Source: Candidatus Tenderia electrophaga (GTDB lineage: Bacteria > Pseudomonadota > Gammaproteobacteria > Tenderiales > Tenderiaceae). Taken from it: 64,000 nucleotides of DNA. Every line of letters starts with the position of its first letter. The stretch's first letter is position 1. The stretch is taken from contig CP013099.1 in assembly GCA_001447805.1 (NCBI GenBank), positions 2,737,181 to 2,801,180 of the forward strand, read 5' to 3'. A program made the translations under genes and the position numbers. This document shows positions 16,519 to 26,575 of the stretch, in pieces. The notes below the pieces were generated by a model. That model was given only the letters and a program-made list of their open reading frames with translations. It was not told the origin of the DNA and made no database searches.

Positions 16519-17922
16519 TTACATCCCGCCCACAAGCGAAAAGGCGATAGGCAGTCGAAACGATATCTGGACATCGGGGGCATCTTCGGTCAGGCCCGCC
16601 CCCAGGGCAATATTGAGATTACGAGTTTTACCGACACGATGAGACAAGCCCATTAACAGAGTCCCCACCTCAAGGCGATCCGAGCCGGGCAAGGTATCCC
16701 CGTTTTGCTTGGTGGCACCAACGGAATTGTGACTGTAGCCCAGGCTGAATGAGGCGCGCGGATTGATAGCGAAGGCCATGCCGAAGCTGATCCCCGTTGC
16801 ATCGCCAGGTTCGATTCGCCCGATGGACGGATTGATTTCACGACCGATGTTACGCAAATAGCTGATGCTGCCGTAAAACACCGCCGGGTCTGAAGGCACG
16901 CTGATACTCAGCCCCGGTTGCACACTCACAAAGCCCGTGCCCGTCGGCAGGGTGGTCTGCAGACCGGTATCGGGATCGACCTCAGTTTCAAACGGATCGC
17001 TGCCGGAACGCGACTTCACGCGCAGGCTACCCACATAATAGGGCCCGCTCCCCCTGCCCCGGTTAAACATGTAGTTGAGTGTCATCTCAACATCCCCCAG
17101 GCCGCTGCCGTCGGCCTGCGTCAGCGTATCCTCCTCCGCCGCCACCGCCAACGGTCGAGTGACCGTGGTGTCGTCGCGACGCACGTAGGGAATCTTGATA
17201 CCCACTTCCAAATGATTGGTGATGCCGTAGCGCAGCGCCAAGGCGGCCATCAGTGTATTTCGGTCCACCTCGCGCACATCGATGGCACCGATGGTAATGG
17301 CGGGGATGATAGTGAAGCCTTCCAGCGCCACGCGGGTCACGCTGGAGTAGGAATAATGCAAAGACGGTTCCACGATTAGGGTGCCCTTATGTGTCAGCAC
17401 ACCCTGACTCTCGATGACATCCACCGGTTGCAGGGGACGGTTGGGCCTGGGAGGTGGGGCCTGCCCCACCGGGCCCTGGTTATCCGGCTGGGAGGCGCTG
17501 CGCTGGTGACGGGGTTGCGACTGCGGCTGTGCGGCGGCGGGTGCACGGGGTTGCGCCTCTTCGTCATCGACCGGAGGCAGCGCCAAATCTTCCATCTGAA
17601 CCTTCAGCCCTTCGATCTTACGACGCTGCTGCTCCAACAATTCTTTCTGCTGGCGAATCAAACGCGCCTGTTCCTCCATGGCATCCCGTTGATCGGTCAG
17701 CCGTTCGGCCTGTTCCTTGAGCGTACGCGCCAGCTCCTTTTCCTGTTGTTCAAGCTGTTTGCGTTTTCCCGTAAGTGCCTCGATCTCCTTCTTGATCTCA
17801 CCCTGCTGCTGTTCGATGGACTCGACGCCGCCTTCACCGCCTTGTTGACCATAGACATTCCCGCCGGGGAGGACCATAACCAGAAATAACGAAACGCATA
17901 CGCAAGCGAAGGACTTAATCAA
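16519..17922 (-). CDS. fapF: FapF-like outer-membrane beta-barrel with N-terminal coiled coil
   Basis: 467 residues with TTG start (GGGGAT upstream; the overlapping ATG frame stops at once). It has a signal peptide (~1-25), a long coiled coil (~35-115, many Gln/Glu/Lys/Arg heptads such as QQKELLEQQRRKIEGL), a Pro/Gln-rich linker (~120-165) and a C-terminal beta-barrel domain ending in alternating strands with terminal hydrophobic residues. In Pseudomonas, FapF is a trimeric barrel with a helical plug that exports amyloid subunits; size and layout match. It is the last gene of the minus-strand amyloid cluster, after a 202-bp gap. Confidence 0.78.
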   Translation of the reverse strand: MIKSFACVCVSLFLVMVLPGGNVYGQQGGEGGVESIEQQQGEIKKEIEALTGKRKQLEQQEKELARTLKEQAERLTDQRDAMEEQARLIRQQKELLEQQRRKIEGLKVQMEDLALPPVDDEEAQPRAPAAAQPQSQPRHQRSASQPDNQGPVGQAPPPRPNRPLQPVDVIESQGVLTHKGTLIVEPSLHYSYSSVTRVALEGFTIIPAITIGAIDVREVDRNTLMAALALRYGITNHLEVGIKIPYVRRDDTTVTRPLAVAAEEDTLTQADGSGLGDVEMTLNYMFNRGRGSGPYYVGSLRVKSRSGSDPFETEVDPDTGLQTTLPTGTGFVSVQPGLSISVPSDPAVFYGSISYLRNIGREINPSIGRIEPGDATGISFGMAFAINPRASFSLGYSHNSVGATKQNGDTLPGSDRLEVGTLLMGLSHRVGKTRNLNIALGAGLTEDAPDVQISFRLPIAFSLVGGM

Positions 17923-18124
17923 TGCTCATCCCCACATTATTATAGTAGTTATATTCCCTGGCGGTGGGCTACAGATCCTCGGTTTACTTAGACCTCACGC
18001 CCCTTATTCCGACCAGAGATTTATCAGCGCAATCTTGGCGCTAGCGCACAACTCACCACATGGGTCGCCCGTATCGGGCGCCGCACCCGGACAACACCTG
18101 GTGGCTGCAATCCGCATGCAGCGA

Positions 18125-18547
18125 TCATTGCGCGCTGGCAAAACTTTGTTTATCGGACTCGCTTTCCAACGAGGCTCTGAGATCGTCGAGACGTCGATGC
18201 TGTTCAAGGTATCTTTCTTTTTGCCTGTCGAGCTGCTTTTCAGCTTCTTGAATGGCAATTCGCTGTGAGATCAACTTGTCTTCCTGCTCAGAAATCATTT
18301 GTGTCACTCTGTTTTCCAGGTCAAGCAGGGCGCGGCGCTGATCCATGAGCTTTTGCAAATCGCTTTCCAATCCCTGCTGCCGATCGACAATCTGAGTGCT
18401 GAGACTGGATATTTGTTGATTCAGGGACTGCAAGTCACTGGATGCGGGATTGTGCTCCCGGGGCGCGTCGCCTTCGGCGAGCACAGCATTTGCGCCGAGC
18501 GAAAACGCAACAGCGGAACACAAAACCATCAATTGTTTGACCTTCAT
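18125..18547 (-). CDS. Exported coiled-coil protein of the amyloid cluster
   Basis: 140 residues. Signal peptide with cleavage likely after ANAVLA (~23), then a mostly helical mature region (LNQQISSLSTQIVDRQQGLE, later LDRQKERYLEQHRRLDDL). ATG 18547 is preferred because GGGAGA lies 6-7 bp upstream; ATG 18553 touches the ribosome site. The role is not recognised. Its position between the FapE-like and FapF-like genes and its periplasmic coiled coil suggest a helper that contacts the FapF coiled-coil plug. The 202 bp before the FapF gene show AT-rich, promoter-like sequence but nothing definite. Confidence 0.7.
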   Translation of the reverse strand: MKVKQLMVLCSAVAFSLGANAVLAEGDAPREHNPASSDLQSLNQQISSLSTQIVDRQQGLESDLQKLMDQRRALLDLENRVTQMISEQEDKLISQRIAIQEAEKQLDRQKERYLEQHRRLDDLRASLESESDKQSFASAQ

Positions 18548-18578
18548 AATCATTCTCCCGGTAATGCCTTATTTATTG

Positions 18579-19133
18579 CTAACGAATGGAGCTCAGCGAA
18601 CGTGTAACTTCGAAATCCACCATCCTCCCCAAATCAGGAATCCTTAGATCCCTGAAATTCTTTACATCAATATCGAGACCGGTGATATGACCGATCTTCT
18701 GCCCATCAAGCGAATTTTGAATAATATTCAGCATTCCCGAGGCCTGCAGCGCGAACGCGCCCTGCCCGCCATTGATCTGCTGCATATAGGGCTCAAACTG
18801 CGGACCTACCTGTGCCGCCAATGCCTCGCGATTGATGTGAGAAAGGTTCATCGCAAAGGAGGACTGCAAGGTATCGTTGAGATATACCAAGCGCTCAATA
18901 CCCACATCGATTTCCAGCCCGTTGGAGGTGACAAACCCACCTCTCAATGTATCCAGCGTGTCATCGGACAAAACAGCGTACTCATGCAGACCACCGCCTG
19001 GAAGATTTTCGGCGGCGCGCGCAAGTCCAGAACACATCATCGTAAACATCAATAGAACAATCGCGCAAACGCATGGAAATTTCACGTTATCCAGGGCAAT
19101 GCATCCAGCAGCTTGTTGGGTGGCATTGTTCAC
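18579..19133 (-). CDS. Exported FapE-position protein with double-Gly leader-like motif
   Basis: 184 residues from GTG 19133, which is 1 bp after the FapD-like stop and has GGAGT upstream; a longer reading into the previous gene is rejected. An N-terminal hydrophobic stretch (VCAIVLLMFTMMCSGLARA) acts as signal peptide. Just after it comes VLSDDTLDTLRGGF, which looks like the L-x-x-E/D-L...GG leader recognised by C39 peptidases. The mature part has amphipathic beta stretches (GLEIDVGIERLVYLNDTL). By position it corresponds to FapE, which is found in Pseudomonas amyloid fibres; sequence identity is not obvious. Confidence 0.65.
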   Translation of the reverse strand: MNNATQQAAGCIALDNVKFPCVCAIVLLMFTMMCSGLARAAENLPGGGLHEYAVLSDDTLDTLRGGFVTSNGLEIDVGIERLVYLNDTLQSSFAMNLSHINREALAAQVGPQFEPYMQQINGGQGAFALQASGMLNIIQNSLDGQKIGHITGLDIDVKNFRDLRIPDLGRMVDFEVTRSLSSIR

Positions 19134-19134
19134 G

Positions 19135-19857
19135 CTAAAACTCCAAATGACTTGTATAGGGCGCCAGCACGGTGGACAAACCATCACGGCTGATAATCGA
19201 TTCAACCGGTGCCCTGGCAATGATTCCATAGCGATCTTGGATATGAAAATTGCGCTGCCCGACATTCTTATTGGTACGAATCAAAAACACGATCCCGTTC
19301 CACATGTCCTCAAACTCATCGCGCGCCAGGTAACGTGTCCCCTTGGCCGGGTCACCCACCAGCACATGAGTCTCGTCTACGCCCTTGATAACGATAAAGT
19401 GTTTATAGCCATCGTCATTGACCAGCACGATGGCCGGCACGCCGATCTTTTTCAGGGTTTCGAGCGGAAATCGAAAGCCATCTGACTCAAAACCTTCCGT
19501 CTCCAAAAACCGCTTGATATCCAGCAGGGAAAATCCGGCGCGCCGGATCAGTGCCTGATCGCCGGAGTTGTACATGAGGGTAAACGCTTCGGTTTCACTC
19601 ACTGGATATTCATAGTGATAAGTCAGCAGCGTGGCCACGGCAGCGGAGCCGCAACTAAAATCGTGCCGCTGTCGAACAGTGGTCAAAAAACGCGCCTCAG
19701 AAAACGCCGTCACCTTGACCACCACATCCGCGGGGCCGGCATCAAACTGCATAAATGCAGCCGCAGCCGCTGCGGGCAGGCCAATCAAGGCAAAAAGCGC
19801 GTAGTGTAATATTTTTCGACAAACGAGCGGCGACGCGTCATCGCGACGGCCGTTCAT
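19135..19857 (-). CDS. fapD: FapD-like C39-family peptidase domain protein
   Basis: 240 residues. After an N-terminal membrane anchor or signal (~11-32, ILHYALFALIGLPAAAAAAF) comes a C39 peptidase-like domain: Gln and Cys in RQRHDFSCGSAAVATLL (~70-85), His in GYKHFIVIKGVDETHVLVGD (~165) and the following Asp. This matches FapD, the periplasmic/inner-membrane peptidase-like component required for Fap amyloid export. ATG 19857 avoids overlap with the upstream gene; 19908 has no ribosome site. The next gene starts 1 bp after the stop, so the two are translationally coupled. Confidence 0.82.
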   Translation of the reverse strand: MNGRRDDASPLVCRKILHYALFALIGLPAAAAAAFMQFDAGPADVVVKVTAFSEARFLTTVRQRHDFSCGSAAVATLLTYHYEYPVSETEAFTLMYNSGDQALIRRAGFSLLDIKRFLETEGFESDGFRFPLETLKKIGVPAIVLVNDDGYKHFIVIKGVDETHVLVGDPAKGTRYLARDEFEDMWNGIVFLIRTNKNVGQRNFHIQDRYGIIARAPVESIISRDGLSTVLAPYTSHLEF

Positions 19858-19873
19858 CCTCGACGCAGCCCTG

Positions 19874-20227
19874 TTACTCACCCAGCTTGAGATTAACAAT
19901 GGTCGCATTTTGGATAATCACATGATTACCGGAATTCTGTATCACAGTGGCAAAGCCGCTGCTATCTGAAAACGCCCCGTGACTGATGGCGTTATTGCCG
20001 CTGGTGCTGGATTGGATGAAATTGTTGTTCAGATTGGCATCCAAATCCATGTCATTCAGCTGCAAAAAGCCGCCCCCTCCCCCCTGTCCCCGAGTAGACT
20101 CCAGCTCGGTCAGAGGCACAGCAGTGGCATGGGACAAAGGTTCGGCCAGCGTTTCATCGGCTATCAAGTCCGCCGAGCCACTCAAACACATCAACACCAG
20201 CAACGAGACACCATAGGGTCCGCGCAT
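19874..20227 (-). CDS. Small Fap-type amyloid or nucleator-like secreted protein, 117 aa
   Basis: 117 residues; signal peptide (~1-24), then VPLTELESTRGQGGGGG, a leader-like segment ending in a glycine run. The C-terminal half is Asn/Ser/Gln rich: NNNFIQSSTSGNNAISHGAF, then ATVIQNSGNHVIIQNATIVN. This half resembles the C-terminus of the large repetitive protein encoded upstream (N-G-x-F ... Q-N-x-G-H-N ... I-Q). By analogy with FapA/FapB it may be a nucleator or chaperone-like subunit. GGAGGTG precedes the ATG. Confidence 0.65.
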   Translation of the reverse strand: MRGPYGVSLLVLMCLSGSADLIADETLAEPLSHATAVPLTELESTRGQGGGGGFLQLNDMDLDANLNNNFIQSSTSGNNAISHGAFSDSSGFATVIQNSGNHVIIQNATIVNLKLGE

Positions 20228-20282
20228 TTCAACACCTCCTCAACAGCCAAACACGACAGCCGTCTCCACTTGTTTTGATGGT

Positions 20283-20309
20283 GCCGGCGGAGGGATCCCC
20301 TCCGCCGGC
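20283..20309 (-). terminator. Strong intercistronic hairpin (attenuator or RNA-processing element)
   Basis: Perfect 12-bp inverted repeat GCCGGCGGAGGG / CCCTCCGCCGGC with a 3-nt loop between the large amyloid gene and the 117-aa gene. No U-tract follows on the minus strand, so it may be a partial terminator or mRNA stabiliser that lets the fibre subunit be made in excess over downstream export proteins. Confidence 0.6.
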
Positions 20310-20354
20310 CACATCACAGCTTATCAAGTTTCAACCAACCGAAAACCAAAGTGG

Positions 20355-22115
20355 TTAGTTTGTGTTTCCGGCGCCGTTGACGTTTGCCTGAACGGTGAAG
20401 TTTTGCTGAATCAGGCTATTGTGACCGTTGTTTTGGGCCGACTGGTTGATGCCATTAGTATTGGCGAATGACCCATTATCAATGGTGTTGTTCACCCGAT
20501 AGGTATAGTCACCGTTACCCATATCAACGCTGTTACCGCTCACCGTGGCTGACAATTCACTTTGCGCCAAGGCGACATCCAGATCGATATCTCCGATGTT
20601 TATGCTGTTGTCGGAGTTATTGCTGTTATCGTTCTGTGAATCAGCCATATTAGTGCTGTTGTCGCTGCTATCGCTGTTCTGCGAATCGGCCAGGTTAGTA
20701 CTGTTGTTGCTGCTGTCTGAGTTGTCGCTATTGTTGCTGTTATCACTGTTATCGCTGTTGTCGTTCTGCGACTGAGCCAGGTTGGTGCTGTTGTTTGAGT
20801 TATCGCTGTTGTTGCTGTTATCACTATTGTTGCTGTTGTCGCTGTTATTGCTGCTGTCGCTGTTGTCGCTGTTGTCGTTCTGCGACTGAGCTAGGTTAGT
20901 ACTGTTATTTGAGTTATCGCTGTTATTGGAATTGTCACTGTTGTTGCTGTTGTCGCTACTGTCACTATTGTCGTTTTGTGACTGCGCCAGATTGGTGCTG
21001 TTGTTTGAATTGTCGCTATTGTTGCTGTTGTCACTGCTATCGCTATTGTCGTTCTGTGACTGAGCTAGATTGGTACTGCTGTTTGAGTTATCGCTGTTGT
21101 TACTGTTGTCGGCGTTTTGGGAGTCGGCAACGCTGGTGCTGTTGTCACTGTTATTACTGTTATCGCTGTTGTTGGTGTTGTCGGTGTTCTGAGAATCCGC
21201 CAGACTGGTGCTGTTGTCACTGTTGTTGCTGTTGTCGGCGTTTTGGGAGTCGGCAACGTTGGTGCTGTTATCGCTGCTATTGCTGTTATCGCTGTTGTTG
21301 TTCTGCGAATCCGCCAGGCTGGTGCTATTGTCGCTGTTGTTACTGTTGTCGGCGTTTTGGGAGTCGGCAACGTTGGTGCTGTTGTCACTGCTATTGCTGT
21401 TATCGCTGTTGTTGCTGTTATCACTGTTATTGGTGTTGTCGGTATTCTGCGAATCCGCCAGGCTGGTGCTGTTGTCACTGTTGTTGCTGTTATCGGCGTT
21501 TTGAGAATCGGCGACGCTGGTGCTGTTGTCGCTGTTGTTGGTATTGTCGGTATTCTGCGAATCCGCCAGGCTGGTGCTGTTGTCACTGTTGTTGCTGTTA
21601 TCGGCGTTTTGAGAATCGGCGACGCTGGTGCTGTTGTCGCTGTTGTTGGTATTGTCGGTATTCTGCGAATCCGCCAGGCTGGTGCTGTTGTCACTGTTGT
21701 TGCTGTTATCGGCGTTTTGAGAATCGGCGACGCTGGTGCTGTTGTCGCTGTTGTTGGTATTGTCGGTATTCTGCGAATCCGCCAGGCTGGTGCTGTTGTC
21801 ACTGTTGTTGCTGTTATCGGCGTTTTGAGAATCGGCGACGCTGGTGCTGTTGTCGCTGTTGTTGGTGTTGTCGGTATTCTGCGAATCCGCCAGGCTGTTA
21901 TCGCTATTATTGCTATTGTCGTTATTCGAATCCATTGCCGAGCTATCGGTTCCCACCGAGCTTGAATTCTCATTCGACGAAACGGCGCCGTTATCCGCCG
22001 TCGACTCGGCGATGGCGTTTGAACCGTCGCTGGTATTATTGGTCGGATTCGCCCAGGCTGAAGTGGACATTCCCAGTGCAAGCGCAATCGCAGTGGCTAA
22101 AAGGCTTTTATTCAT
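20355..22115 (-). CDS. Hyper-repetitive Asn/Ser/Asp-rich secreted protein, candidate Fap-type major amyloid subunit
   Basis: 586 residues from ATG 22115 (GGAGGA upstream); earlier in-frame codons give no signal peptide. The signal peptide is MNKSLLATAIALALGMSTSAWA. About 470 residues are then built almost only from Asn, Ser and Asp with short Thr/Val/Leu-Ala-Asp-Ser-Gln steps, including a 36-residue tandem repeat (blocks such as SDNSTSVADSQNADN). A non-repetitive C-terminal ~95 residues follow (INIGDIDLDVALAQSELSA ... NGINQSAQNNGHNSLIQQNF), which resemble FapB/FapC ends. It leads the minus-strand cluster with C39 peptidase and barrel genes, so I infer it is the fibre protein. Repeat composition is unlike the ordinary FapC linker, so the identity is tentative. 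Confidence 0.72.
   Translation of the reverse strand: MNKSLLATAIALALGMSTSAWANPTNNTSDGSNAIAESTADNGAVSSNENSSSVGTDSSAMDSNNDNSNNSDNSLADSQNTDNTNNSDNSTSVADSQNADNSNNSDNSTSLADSQNTDNTNNSDNSTSVADSQNADNSNNSDNSTSLADSQNTDNTNNSDNSTSVADSQNADNSNNSDNSTSLADSQNTDNTNNSDNSTSVADSQNADNSNNSDNSTSLADSQNTDNTNNSDNSNNSDNSNSSDNSTNVADSQNADNSNNSDNSTSLADSQNNNSDNSNSSDNSTNVADSQNADNSNNSDNSTSLADSQNTDNTNNSDNSNNSDNSTSVADSQNADNSNNSDNSNSSTNLAQSQNDNSDSSDNSNNSDNSNNSTNLAQSQNDNSDSSDNSNNSDNSNNSDNSNNSTNLAQSQNDNSDNSDSSNNSDNSNNSDNSNNSDNSNNSTNLAQSQNDNSDNSDNSNNSDNSDSSNNSTNLADSQNSDSSDNSTNMADSQNDNSNNSDNSINIGDIDLDVALAQSELSATVSGNSVDMGNGDYTYRVNNTIDNGSFANTNGINQSAQNNGHNSLIQQNFTVQANVNGAGNTN
21441..21880 (-). repeat. 108-bp tandem repeat inside the amyloid gene
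   Basis: A marker string beginning GGTATTCTGCGAATCC recurs at 21441, 21549, 21657, 21765 and 21873, a strict 108-bp period (36 codons) with near-identical copies. More diverged and shorter Asn/Ser/Asp repeats extend from about 20600 to 21950. Such arrays change copy number by slippage or recombination and are prone to assembly collapse. Confidence 0.92.
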
Positions 22116-22801: not shown

Positions 22802-23494
22802 ATGTCTGAAGCCGGCACTGCCAAGCCGAGCAATACGCCCGCATCATTCGCCATCAAGGACTGCGCCCTGGTGGCCCTGGCGACGGGTAAAAAGGTCACA
22901 TTATTACGGGAGTTCCGCCGTGAATTGCAGGACATCGATGCGGCCAGCATCTATCACCACTTCTGGGGCGGGCTGCTACAGCCTCGTTTCGAGGAGCGTG
23001 AATACAATAACGACTTTGCCGCCTGGATGCAGCACGGCATCCACGACGCCGCACTGGCGGAGCGCCTGGCCGTGTTGGACCCCACCCGCGCCACCGATCT
23101 GGAGGCGCTGCGCTGCGAGGTTCTCGAACAGATCGATATTCGTCTGGAGGAAGTGGAATACTTATCCTGGAGCCGTGCCAGCCAGCCATTTGTGTTCATC
23201 TGTTCCCAGATCGTGGTATTCGATACCGGCCGACGCCTGCAACGGCCGCAGGAACTCGCCAAGATCGTGTCTCAACTCTCCACCAGCAGCATCTTTTACC
23301 ACTTCATCGATGCGCGCCGCCGCACCGAACATGGCCATGACGATTTCAGCGATTGGTTGACCCTGTTCGGTGAGCAGTACGGCCCCTTGAAGCAAGCGCT
23401 GCAGGCGGTGGATCCCTATTTCGGCAGCCTCAGCGAACTGCGCCGACAATTGATTTCCCTGTTACAAAGCCATTTCCCGGAGGTTCACGCATGA
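22802..23494 (+). CDS. DUF5752 family protein
   Basis: 230 residues, soluble, helical. Two similar halves: SFAIKDCALVALATGKKVTLLREFRREL ... IYHHFWGGLLQPRFEEREYNNDFAAW (~15-75) and FVFICSQIVVFDTGRRLQRPQELAKIVSQL ... IFYHFIDARRRTEHGHDDFSDW (~125-190), which suggests an internal duplication. DUF5752 proteins are typically encoded beside TreT-like glycosyltransferases; here the stop overlaps the TreT start (ATGA), implying coupled translation and a functional partnership. Activity unknown. Confidence 0.8.
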   Translation: MSEAGTAKPSNTPASFAIKDCALVALATGKKVTLLREFRRELQDIDAASIYHHFWGGLLQPRFEEREYNNDFAAWMQHGIHDAALAERLAVLDPTRATDLEALRCEVLEQIDIRLEEVEYLSWSRASQPFVFICSQIVVFDTGRRLQRPQELAKIVSQLSTSSIFYHFIDARRRTEHGHDDFSDWLTLFGEQYGPLKQALQAVDPYFGSLSELRRQLISLLQSHFPEVHA

Positions 23495-24729
23495 GCCTGT
23501 TGGAGGAATATGCCCGTGTCACCGGCCCGGATGTCATCGCCCAGCTGCAACAATTGACCCAGCCGCTGCAGGGCATGAAGCTGGTCCATGTCAGTTCCAC
23601 CCGCAGTGGCGGCGGGGTGGCCGAGATCCTCAATAAGATGGTGCCCTTGACCCGGGAACTGGGTATCGATACCCAATGGGAGGTCATCAGCGGCGATAGC
23701 GACTTCTTCGAATGTACCAAGGGCATGCACAACACCCTGCAGGGTAATCGCATCCCCTTGGGTGACCACCTGCTCCAGTCCTATGAGGCCACCAATGCGC
23801 ACAACGCCGAGCGTTTGCGTCCCACCCTGGAGGCGGCGGACTTCGTCTTTATCCACGACCCGCAACCGGCGGCGCTGCTCGGGCTGTGCCCCAATCGCAG
23901 GGGTAAATGGATCTGGCGCTGCCATATCGACGCCAGTCATCCCTATCGACCCGTATGGAAATATCTGCGCCAGTTCGTGGCACCTTATGACGCCAGTGTG
24001 TTTTCCCTGGCGGCCTTCGCCCAGGAGTTGCCCCATCCCCAGTACCTGATTCCGCCCAGCATCGATCCGCTGGCGGAAAAGAATATCGACCTGGATGAAG
24101 AGACCATCGCCGAGATCTGCGACCAATACCAGATCGACCGCCAACGCCCCTTGATCGTGCAGATTTCGCGGTTCGATCGATTCAAGGATCCGGTGGGGGT
24201 CATCCAGGCCTATCGCCTGGCCAAGCGCTATCTCCCCGGACTGCAATTGGTGCTCGCCGGCGGCGGTGCCGCCGATGATCCGGAAGGTGAAGTCGTCCTG
24301 GACGAAGTCAAGACGGCGGCCGCCTATGATGCCGATATTCATGTACTGCTGTTGCCGCCCGACGCCAACCTGGAGGTCAACGCGCTGCAGCGGGCCGCGG
24401 ACATCGTCGTGCAAAAATCCTTGCGCGAGGGCTTCGGCCTGACAGTCACCGAGGCCATGTGGAAGGGAAAACCTGTCATCGGCGGCGATGTGGGTGGCAT
24501 TCGCCTGCAGGTGGTGAACTACCACACCGGCTTTCTCGTCAACACGCCCGAGGGGGCAGCCCTGCGCATCCGCTATCTACTACACCAAAAGGAACGGCTG
24601 GAGGAGATGGGCGCCAAGGCCAAGGCCCTGGTGCGCGACAACTTTCTTATCACCCGCCATCTGCGCGAATATCTTACCCTGATGGTGGCATTATTGAATG
24701 AGGGACATGACCGCATCCAACTCGGGTAA
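23491..24729 (+). CDS. treT: Trehalose synthase TreT-like glycosyltransferase (GT4)
   Basis: 412 residues with two Rossmann domains of GT-B type. N-terminal STRSGGGVAEILNKMVPL is typical of TreT, which makes trehalose reversibly from an NDP-glucose and glucose. The C-terminal domain has ISRFDRFKDPVGVIQAY and the GT4 signature KSLREGFGLTVTEAMWKGKP with the two glutamates (~310-325). It would link ADP-glucose from GlgC in this locus to trehalose. It overlaps DUF5752 upstream and TreZ downstream. Confidence 0.85.
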   Translation: MSLLEEYARVTGPDVIAQLQQLTQPLQGMKLVHVSSTRSGGGVAEILNKMVPLTRELGIDTQWEVISGDSDFFECTKGMHNTLQGNRIPLGDHLLQSYEATNAHNAERLRPTLEAADFVFIHDPQPAALLGLCPNRRGKWIWRCHIDASHPYRPVWKYLRQFVAPYDASVFSLAAFAQELPHPQYLIPPSIDPLAEKNIDLDEETIAEICDQYQIDRQRPLIVQISRFDRFKDPVGVIQAYRLAKRYLPGLQLVLAGGGAADDPEGEVVLDEVKTAAAYDADIHVLLLPPDANLEVNALQRAADIVVQKSLREGFGLTVTEAMWKGKPVIGGDVGGIRLQVVNYHTGFLVNTPEGAALRIRYLLHQKERLEEMGAKAKALVRDNFLITRHLREYLTLMVALLNEGHDRIQLG

Positions 24730-26575
24730 ACAACGCCATCACAGCATGCCCTTCGGGGCCCAACTCCTGGACATGGGGGGGGTACGCTTCAGACTCTGGG
24801 CCCCCGCGGCGCAGCGCGTCGAACTGTGCCTGATCGAAGGCGAGGCAGAGACCCGTCTGCCCATGACGCGCCAGGATGAAGGCTGGTTCGAATGGGTGAC
24901 CGAACAGGCCGGCAACGGCAGCCGCTATCGCTTTCGTATCGATGCCGGGATGCACGTCCCGGATCCGGCCTCCCGTTATCAACCGGAGGATGTGCATGGC
25001 CCCAGCGAGGTGGTCGACCCCCGGGCCTGGGCCTGGCAGGATGAGGCCTGGCTGGGGCGGCCGTGGCAGGAGGCCGTCATCTACGAACTGCACGTCGGCA
25101 GTTTCAGCCCACAGGGCAACTATGCCGCCATCCAAGCGCGCCTGGACACGCTGGTCGAACTGGGGGTGACCGCCGTCGAGCTGATGCCGGTGGCCGACTT
25201 TCCCGGTCGGCGCAACTGGGGCTATGACGGCGTCTATCTGTTCGCCCCCGACAGCCAATACGGCCGTCCGGAGGACCTCAAGGCCCTCGTCGAGGCCGCC
25301 CATGCGCGCGGGCTAATGGTGTTCCTGGACGTGGTGTACAACCACTTCGGTCCCGAGGGCAACTATCTCCACGCCTATGCCCCACAGTTCTTCACCGAGC
25401 GCCATCATACCCCCTGGGGCGCGGCCATTAACTATGATGGCAAGCACAGCCATTGGGTCAGGGAATTCTTCATTCACAATGCCTTGTACTGGTTGGCGGA
25501 ATATCATCTCGATGGTCTGCGCCTGGACGCCGTGCACGCCATCATCGACGACTCGCAACCGGACATCCTCACCGAACTCGCGGAGCGGGTGCAAAGGCAC
25601 TTCGGCAACCAGCGCCAGATCCATCTGGTGCTGGAGAATGATCGCAATGCCGCCCATTATCTGAGGCGCAGCGCCAATGGCCGACCGGAACATTATGTCG
25701 CCCAATGGAACGATGACATCCATCACGCCCTGCACGTACTGCTCACCGGCGAAGGGGAAGGTTATTACATGGACTATGCGCCGCACCCCTTGCCCCATCT
25801 ACAGCGCTGCCTGAGCGAGGGGTTCGCCTACCAGGGTGAAGCTTCCGCCTATCGCGAGGCACAAGCGCGGGGCGAGGCCAGCGCGCATCTGCCGGCCACC
25901 GCCTTCGTCTCTTTTTTGCAGAATCACGACCAGGTGGGCAATCGTGCCTTTGGCGAGCGCATCGCCGCACTCACCGACGACAAGCGCCTGCGCGCCGCCC
26001 TGAGCCTGCTGCTGTTGGCCCCCGCCCCGCCCCTGCTGTTCATGGGCCAGGAGTGGAACAGCTCCCAGCCGTTCCCCTTTTTCTGCGACTTCGGCGCCGA
26101 TTTGGCCGAGAAGGTGGTGGAAGGACGACGCAATGAGTTCGCCCATTTTCCCGAATTCAACGCCCCGGCCGCGCGCGAGCGCATCCCCGACCCCATGGCC
26201 GAGGCCACCTTCAACCAGGCCATCCTCGACTGGCAGGCGCGCCACAGTCCCGATCACCAGCCGTGGTTGACACTGCATAAAGAACTGCTGGCACTGCGCC
26301 ACGCCGAGGTGATACCCCGCCTGCACAATCTGGTGGGGGGTGCAGCCGCTACCACCACCTGGGCCGGGCAGGGCCTGCGCGTGGACTGGTCCCTGGGCGA
26401 TGGCGCCGGGCTGGCGCTGCTGGCCAATCTGGGTGATACATCGATCGCAGCGCTCGATCGTCCTTCGGGACGATTACTCTACAGCACCCATCCGACGGCG
26501 ACACAAGCCGATGCGCTAGCGCTGCCCCCGTGGTCAGTCTGCTGGTATCTGGATGAGGCACGCCACTCGCGATGA
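24707..26575 (+). CDS. treZ: Malto-oligosyltrehalose trehalohydrolase TreZ
   Basis: 622 residues, GH13. N-terminal CBM48-like domain (RFRLWAPAAQRVELCL, ~18-105), then the catalytic barrel with AVIYELHVGSFSP, VVYNHFGPEGNYLHAYAP, nucleophile region GLRLDAVHAI and acid/base LVLENDRN, and FLQNHDQVGN. It releases trehalose from the maltooligosyl-trehalose made by TreY. The start overlaps treT by 23 bp with GAGGG just upstream; ATG 24698 is an alternative. Confidence 0.92.
   Translation: MTASNSGKQRHHSMPFGAQLLDMGGVRFRLWAPAAQRVELCLIEGEAETRLPMTRQDEGWFEWVTEQAGNGSRYRFRIDAGMHVPDPASRYQPEDVHGPSEVVDPRAWAWQDEAWLGRPWQEAVIYELHVGSFSPQGNYAAIQARLDTLVELGVTAVELMPVADFPGRRNWGYDGVYLFAPDSQYGRPEDLKALVEAAHARGLMVFLDVVYNHFGPEGNYLHAYAPQFFTERHHTPWGAAINYDGKHSHWVREFFIHNALYWLAEYHLDGLRLDAVHAIIDDSQPDILTELAERVQRHFGNQRQIHLVLENDRNAAHYLRRSANGRPEHYVAQWNDDIHHALHVLLTGEGEGYYMDYAPHPLPHLQRCLSEGFAYQGEASAYREAQARGEASAHLPATAFVSFLQNHDQVGNRAFGERIAALTDDKRLRAALSLLLLAPAPPLLFMGQEWNSSQPFPFFCDFGADLAEKVVEGRRNEFAHFPEFNAPAARERIPDPMAEATFNQAILDWQARHSPDHQPWLTLHKELLALRHAEVIPRLHNLVGGAAATTTWAGQGLRVDWSLGDGAGLALLANLGDTSIAALDRPSGRLLYSTHPTATQADALALPPWSVCWYLDEARHSR

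Follow-up and report, generated by a model that had tools for sequence, protein, structure and literature searches.

The window, i.e., the 64,000 nucleotides of Candidatus Tenderia electrophaga that were analyzed, carries at positions 16519-22115 of its minus strand an operon related to the Fap amyloid system. A first-pass annotation had placed six genes here, and all six open reading frames (ORFs) were found as claimed (Table 1). Their order is C-B-D-E-(coiled coil)-F, with the major subunit ahead of the minor one, and no fapA was found among the operon genes, as judged from the ORFs and the curated Fap models. The accompanying proposal that the genes follow the logic of fapABCDEF stands in part: it holds for FapD and FapF, which are homologous, and for the C-termini of the fibre proteins, which are related to the Fap repeat, but fapA is missing and the gene order is different. 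A GGAGG ribosome site is located directly upstream of the major subunit gene, and the true start of the FapD-like ORF is uncertain, possibly 19824. The genome contains one such operon.

Table 1. Features of the Fap-like operon, in window coordinates (aa, amino acids).
Feature	Position	Strand	Remarks
Major fibre subunit, FapC position	20355..22115	-	586 aa, Sec signal peptide; homologues at the equivalent place in most loci
Asn/Ser/Asp low-complexity array, aa 61-505	20601..21935	-	18-aa units, ADSQN/AQSQN boxes, predicted disordered
Conserved C-terminal core (last 50 aa of subunit), single amyloid-type repeat GINQSAQNNGHNSLIQQNFTVQANV	20358..20507	-	
Perfect 12-bp hairpin between subunit and FapB-like genes	20283..20309	-	
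Small secreted FapB-like protein, putative nucleator	19874..20227	-	117 aa, one C-terminal repeat at about 19889-19996
Leader-like motif VPLTELESTRGQ of FapB-like protein	20084..20119	-	RGG form in 45/80 homologues
FapD-like periplasmic C39 peptidase	19135..19908	-	Gln, Cys86, His170 and Asp186 present
FapE-position secreted protein	18579..19133	-	184 aa, probable GTG start
C39 double-glycine leader motif LSDDTLDTLRGG, FapE-like aa 55-66	18936..18971	-	Proposed FapD site
Secreted coiled-coil protein	18125..18553	-	142 aa, clade-specific
FapF-like outer-membrane channel, N-terminal coiled coil	16519..17922	-	

The C39 protein matched Pfam Peptidase_C39 (E=4e-22) and NCBIfam FapD (145 bits, E=2e-42; equivalog cut-off 330), and among solved structures the FapD profile comes closest to the double-glycine peptidase domain 6mpz. 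The channel matched NCBIfam FapF (135 bits, E=2e-39; equivalog cut-off 700) and the solved FapF structures 5o65, 5o67 and 5o68 at E 2e-24 or better (5o65, E=3e-25). No curated Fap model of Pfam or NCBIfam matched the other four proteins (subunit, small secreted protein, FapE-position protein, coiled-coil protein); canonical FapB, FapC and FapE of a related genome, run as controls, did match their own NCBIfam models, although below the cut-offs. The structure predicted for the FapE-like protein is weak, with a mean predicted local confidence (pLDDT) of 59 and a predicted template-modelling score of 0.33. The coiled-coil protein is confined to the small clade of the window and resembles the N-terminal coiled coil of FapF, from which it perhaps arose by duplication, although coiled coils all look alike and caution is needed. 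A second, weak FapF-like barrel match lies elsewhere in the genome (G000:C1:1970093-1970548, E 2e-6).

The peptidase and channel also matched the NCBIfam models FilB and FilC of the Acinetobacter Fil genes, which likewise combine a C39 peptidase with a FapF-like channel, at 114 of 475 and 64 of 630 bits, under the cut-offs. The operon might on this basis build a non-amyloid surface layer, pilus or adhesin, with the QN-rich core of the subunit as a binding or assembly domain. We consider this improbable: the FapD and FapF scores exceed those to FilB and FilC, the two models to which the Fil comparison was limited, and the C-terminus of the FapB-like protein aligns in register with the canonical amyloid repeat, as described below.

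FapD relatives were sought in neighbouring genomes and then across 84,980 named species; at least 554 were confirmed and 80 loci were fetched. The two search patterns were modelled on FapD residues of the branch described here, the single-repeat Fap or type A, and the canonical FapD sequences examined here do not fit them. Profiles of the FapB-like, FapD, FapE-like and FapF proteins matched nearly all of the 80 loci, in constant order. The hosts belong to the Gamma-, Beta- and Alphaproteobacteria and the Geobacteraceae, with single metagenome-assembled genomes of other phyla. Among 369 evenly sampled gammaproteobacterial genomes the two systems were similarly common, at about 14 for type A and about 15 for the canonical system by our own count. 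The FapD tree placed the type-A proteins in one clade (support 97) with canonical FapD outside it; this clade takes in two entries first labelled "other", both of which carry RGG-containing FapE-like genes. Pseudoxanthomonas daejeonensis encodes both systems on one contig (L103, L027). A further genome, G449, apparently contains one type-A and two canonical-type FapD genes. The motif VGQAP was tried as a signature of type-A FapF and abandoned, being present in only 44/77.

Compared with Fap of Pseudomonas (fapABCDEF), type A shares the C39 peptidase FapD, the coiled-coil FapF channel, two repeat-bearing fibre proteins and an N-terminal ELxxLRG-like block in FapE. It differs by the lack of fapA, the leading position of the major subunit, one repeat per fibre protein, a separate FapD clade, a one-sided linker, an RGG in place of RGR/K and a leader that also occurs on the FapB-like protein. 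The homology of FapD and FapF, together with the leader motif common with canonical FapE, would also suit an ordinary canonical fap system that has merely drifted. This explanation is unlikely in view of the supported separation of the FapD clades, the presence of both systems in one genome, the single repeat instead of three, the missing fapA, the placement of C before B, and the failure of the FapB, FapC and FapE models to match the window proteins. Judged from its sequence, the operon is Fap-like in machinery, but repeat number, gene order and curated models set it apart from canonical Fap. It is apparently a member of a widespread sister branch of Fap that has gone unrecognized; no description of a single-repeat Fap branch or of a FapE leader was found in the open-licence literature.

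At most loci, the gene upstream of the FapB-like one encodes a long low-complexity protein with a conserved C-terminal core, AAGIxVxAQNSGxxSLIQQSVxVQANL. The core occurs once per protein, and four copies were found only in one small lineage. The subunits of this lineage (L023:3093-4004 and L128:95-1000) have four repeats and no low-complexity linker, as no other type-A subunits do; their branch lies close to the base of the clade, and they may represent the ancestral form. According to published censuses, about 94% of FapC and FapB have three repeats (PMC12392863, PMC12822426), and Fap has been called evolutionarily fixed (PMC12822426). The expected pattern of about three repeats of ~39 residues in each of FapB and FapC was not seen at the window, where both fibre proteins have one. 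The C-terminus of the FapB-like protein is related to the subunit core (hhalign E=9e-9), and the canonical Fap repeat aligned with this C-terminus in register with a score of 23.8, while the best of 100 column-shuffled controls reached 15.4 (0/100 equal). Curli (CsgA/CsgB) follows a comparable logic, with Q/N-rich amyloid repeats and a nucleator plus subunit; however, no csgEFG proteins occur among the operon genes, and curli has many short repeats without linkers.

Between the signal peptide and the core, the subunit consists mainly of three residues: aa 61-505 contain 143 Asn, 124 Ser and 74 Asp among 445 residues (77%), i.e., 32% Asn and about 17% Asp with hardly any hydrophobics. The first-pass annotation had described this array as 36-residue repeats. 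The composition and the 36-residue superperiod were confirmed, but self-identity was higher at 18 residues (0.52) than at 36 (0.45), which resolves the 36-residue repeat into two 18-residue units. A(D/Q)SQN boxes, 20 in all, are interspersed along the array. At the DNA level, a 108-bp unit is present in 4.5 copies (98% match, score 935), which points to a recent tandem expansion of part of the array. The units of the array also differ from one another by 704 synonymous and 565 residue-changing codon differences, so that an older array survives around the recent duplication. Across 60 subunits, linker length ranged from 115 to 832 residues with a median of 380; 14 linkers, including that of the window, are rich in Asn, Ser, Asp, Thr and Gln, and 45 are rich in Gly and Ala. 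Conservation across the subunit homologues is limited to the last ~50 residues.

Asn-rich sequences can form amyloid, and with 32% Asn and a regular 18-aa period the array itself might be a prion-like cross-beta stack, its C-terminus serving merely for export targeting. This is hardly likely given the Asp content and scarcity of hydrophobic residues, the AlphaFold pLDDT of about 34 for the array (only the C-terminus is higher, 45-64), and the homologues, which have Gly/Ala/Ser/Thr-rich sequence instead and yet keep the C-terminal core. Accordingly, of the two options previously offered, a distinct amyloid class made of Asn/Ser/Asp repeats found no support, and a short amyloid core at the end of an extended hydrophilic linker is favoured. 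The array was rejected as a folded or amyloid repeat because it is predicted to be disordered and its composition is not conserved. Since composition varies freely while the core stays constant, the linker reads as a hydrophilic brush on display rather than as the amyloid.

The FapE-like and many of the FapB-like proteins of type A also carry a C39-type leader motif, [LIV]SxxxLxxMRGG. In the FapE-like proteins, the form [LIV]xxxxLxxxRGG(F/Y) follows shortly after the signal peptide in 75/78, and in the window it ends about 26 aa past the predicted signal cleavage. The strict C39-leader form was present in 41 FapE-like and 20 FapB-like proteins, against shuffling expectations of 1.0 and 0.1, respectively; it had no match in type-A FapD or subunit proteins. 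Among 25 aligned FapE-like proteins, the invariant residues were the RGG and a later QN pair only, and the leader motif occurred in 3/2961 other ORFs from the same loci. A leader-like motif was not retained as a rule for FapF, where just 8/77 type-A proteins have one. Canonical FapE, that of Pseudomonas-type systems included (a label given for scores above the curated FapE cut-off), shows an ELxxLRG(R/K)(Y/F) block at the equivalent place, e.g., ELKDAEMAELRGRYVMPG; by our own count, the block reads RGR or RGK in 33 of the 35 such loci read. Two coiled-coil proteins (L036:2170-2583, L139:2705-3166) have the C-terminal sequence FEEIRG(R/K)F; its resemblance to the leader block of FapE may be coincidence.

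The catalytic Gln-Cys and His of the peptidase are present in 80/80 FapD homologues. Previous work found the FapD Cys to be essential, left its target open and stated that Fap proteins lack canonical C39 sequences; FapE alone was detected without its N-terminus by mass spectrometry (PMC5557850). The protease activity of FapD is essential for secretion, with its substrate reported as unknown (PMC5557850, PMC6173800). As that literature leaves the substrate unidentified, the RGG leader is a testable candidate for the FapD target site, and the intact double glycine of the type-A branch suggests where the cut would fall. C39 peptidase-containing ABC transporters, such as 6mpz, share the catalytic residues and leaders with L at -7, a hydrophobic residue at -4 and G at -2 and -1. 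In contrast, the window peptidase is stand-alone and Sec-exported, no ABC transporter is encoded in the operon, and the putative substrates first bear a Sec signal peptide. At another locus (L030:2955-6392, reverse-complement coordinates), a stand-alone C39 peptidase is encoded close to a predicted outer-membrane barrel and to a protein of 129 aa that has a Sec signal and the bacteriocin-like leader LSDQEMKNTEGA; this set hints that periplasmic maturation by C39 peptidases may be of more general use.

Based on these observations, we propose that all operon proteins enter the periplasm via Sec, where FapD would trim the FapE-like and FapB-like proteins of short pro-peptides that end in RGG and thereby license or start export. 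FapF would conduct the FapB-like protein, the FapE-like protein and the big subunit across the outer membrane. The FapB-like nucleator would then seed polymerization of the subunit, which would proceed by stacking of the single C-terminal repeat, with each subunit molecule contributing one cross-beta layer and displaying about 500 hydrated, acidic, disordered residues, so that the fibre would be an amyloid core bearing a dense brush. We judge it probable that Fap export has a separate, widespread branch working in this manner, with leader cleavage, FapF export and a one-repeat fibre, and that the locus is a complete example of it.

Several points weigh against this proposal. When the canonical Fap repeat was compared directly with the subunit core, the match was marginal, with 1 to 8 of 100 shuffles equally good, and the relationship between the window subunit and FapC therefore depends on the FapB-like link. 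The C-terminal relation to FapB/FapC is in this respect only partly borne out, since it holds via the FapB-like protein while the NCBIfam FapB and FapC models gave no match. The NCBIfam FapE model matched neither the FapE-like protein of the window nor that of L022, which have only gene position and the leader motif in common with canonical FapE, and the motif of the FapB-like protein of the window reads RGQ, not RGG. In canonical FapE, R or K occupies position -1 where C39 substrates have Gly, and the exact cut is uncertain there. This last feature would suit a different role for one step of the model, in which RGG is a docking signal for FapF or a chaperone instead of a protease site; the N-terminus of FapE has also been suggested as a possible secretion-targeting sequence (PMC5557850). 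Such docking is a possibility that we find doubtful but worth keeping in mind, as the motif agrees with C39 leaders in both its spacing and its residues ([LIV] at -12, L at -7, M/L/I at -4, G at -2) and the operon encodes a C39 peptidase whose profile is closest to a double-glycine protease.

The intergenic regions between the subunit and FapB-like genes folded with z < -2 relative to composition shuffles in 44/55 cases (window z -3.3). The hairpin is probably an attenuator or messenger RNA stabilizer that gives an excess of the major subunit over the nucleator. A sigma-70 match upstream of the subunit gene was at chance level only. A trehalose-type cluster adjoins the operon on the plus strand (22802-26575) and comprises a DUF5752 protein, a TreT-type glycosyltransferase and a probable malto-oligosyltrehalose trehalohydrolase, the last assigned by eye only.

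With somewhat less assurance, we favour the broader view that a widespread, unrecognized sister of Fap makes amyloid from one-repeat subunits with a lineage-specific low-complexity brush, and that FapD activates both branches in the periplasm by cutting a double-glycine-type leader from FapE (and from the FapB-like protein). The branch breaks the three-repeat rule of the latest Fap census (PMC12822426), and repeat-based searches probably miss it. The leader offers a concrete candidate target site for FapD, and the diversity of natural linkers attached to a single conserved core provides a test set for the effects of a brush on fibre properties. If this view is true, the substrate of FapD would be identified, and Fap would not be evolutionarily fixed at three repeats.

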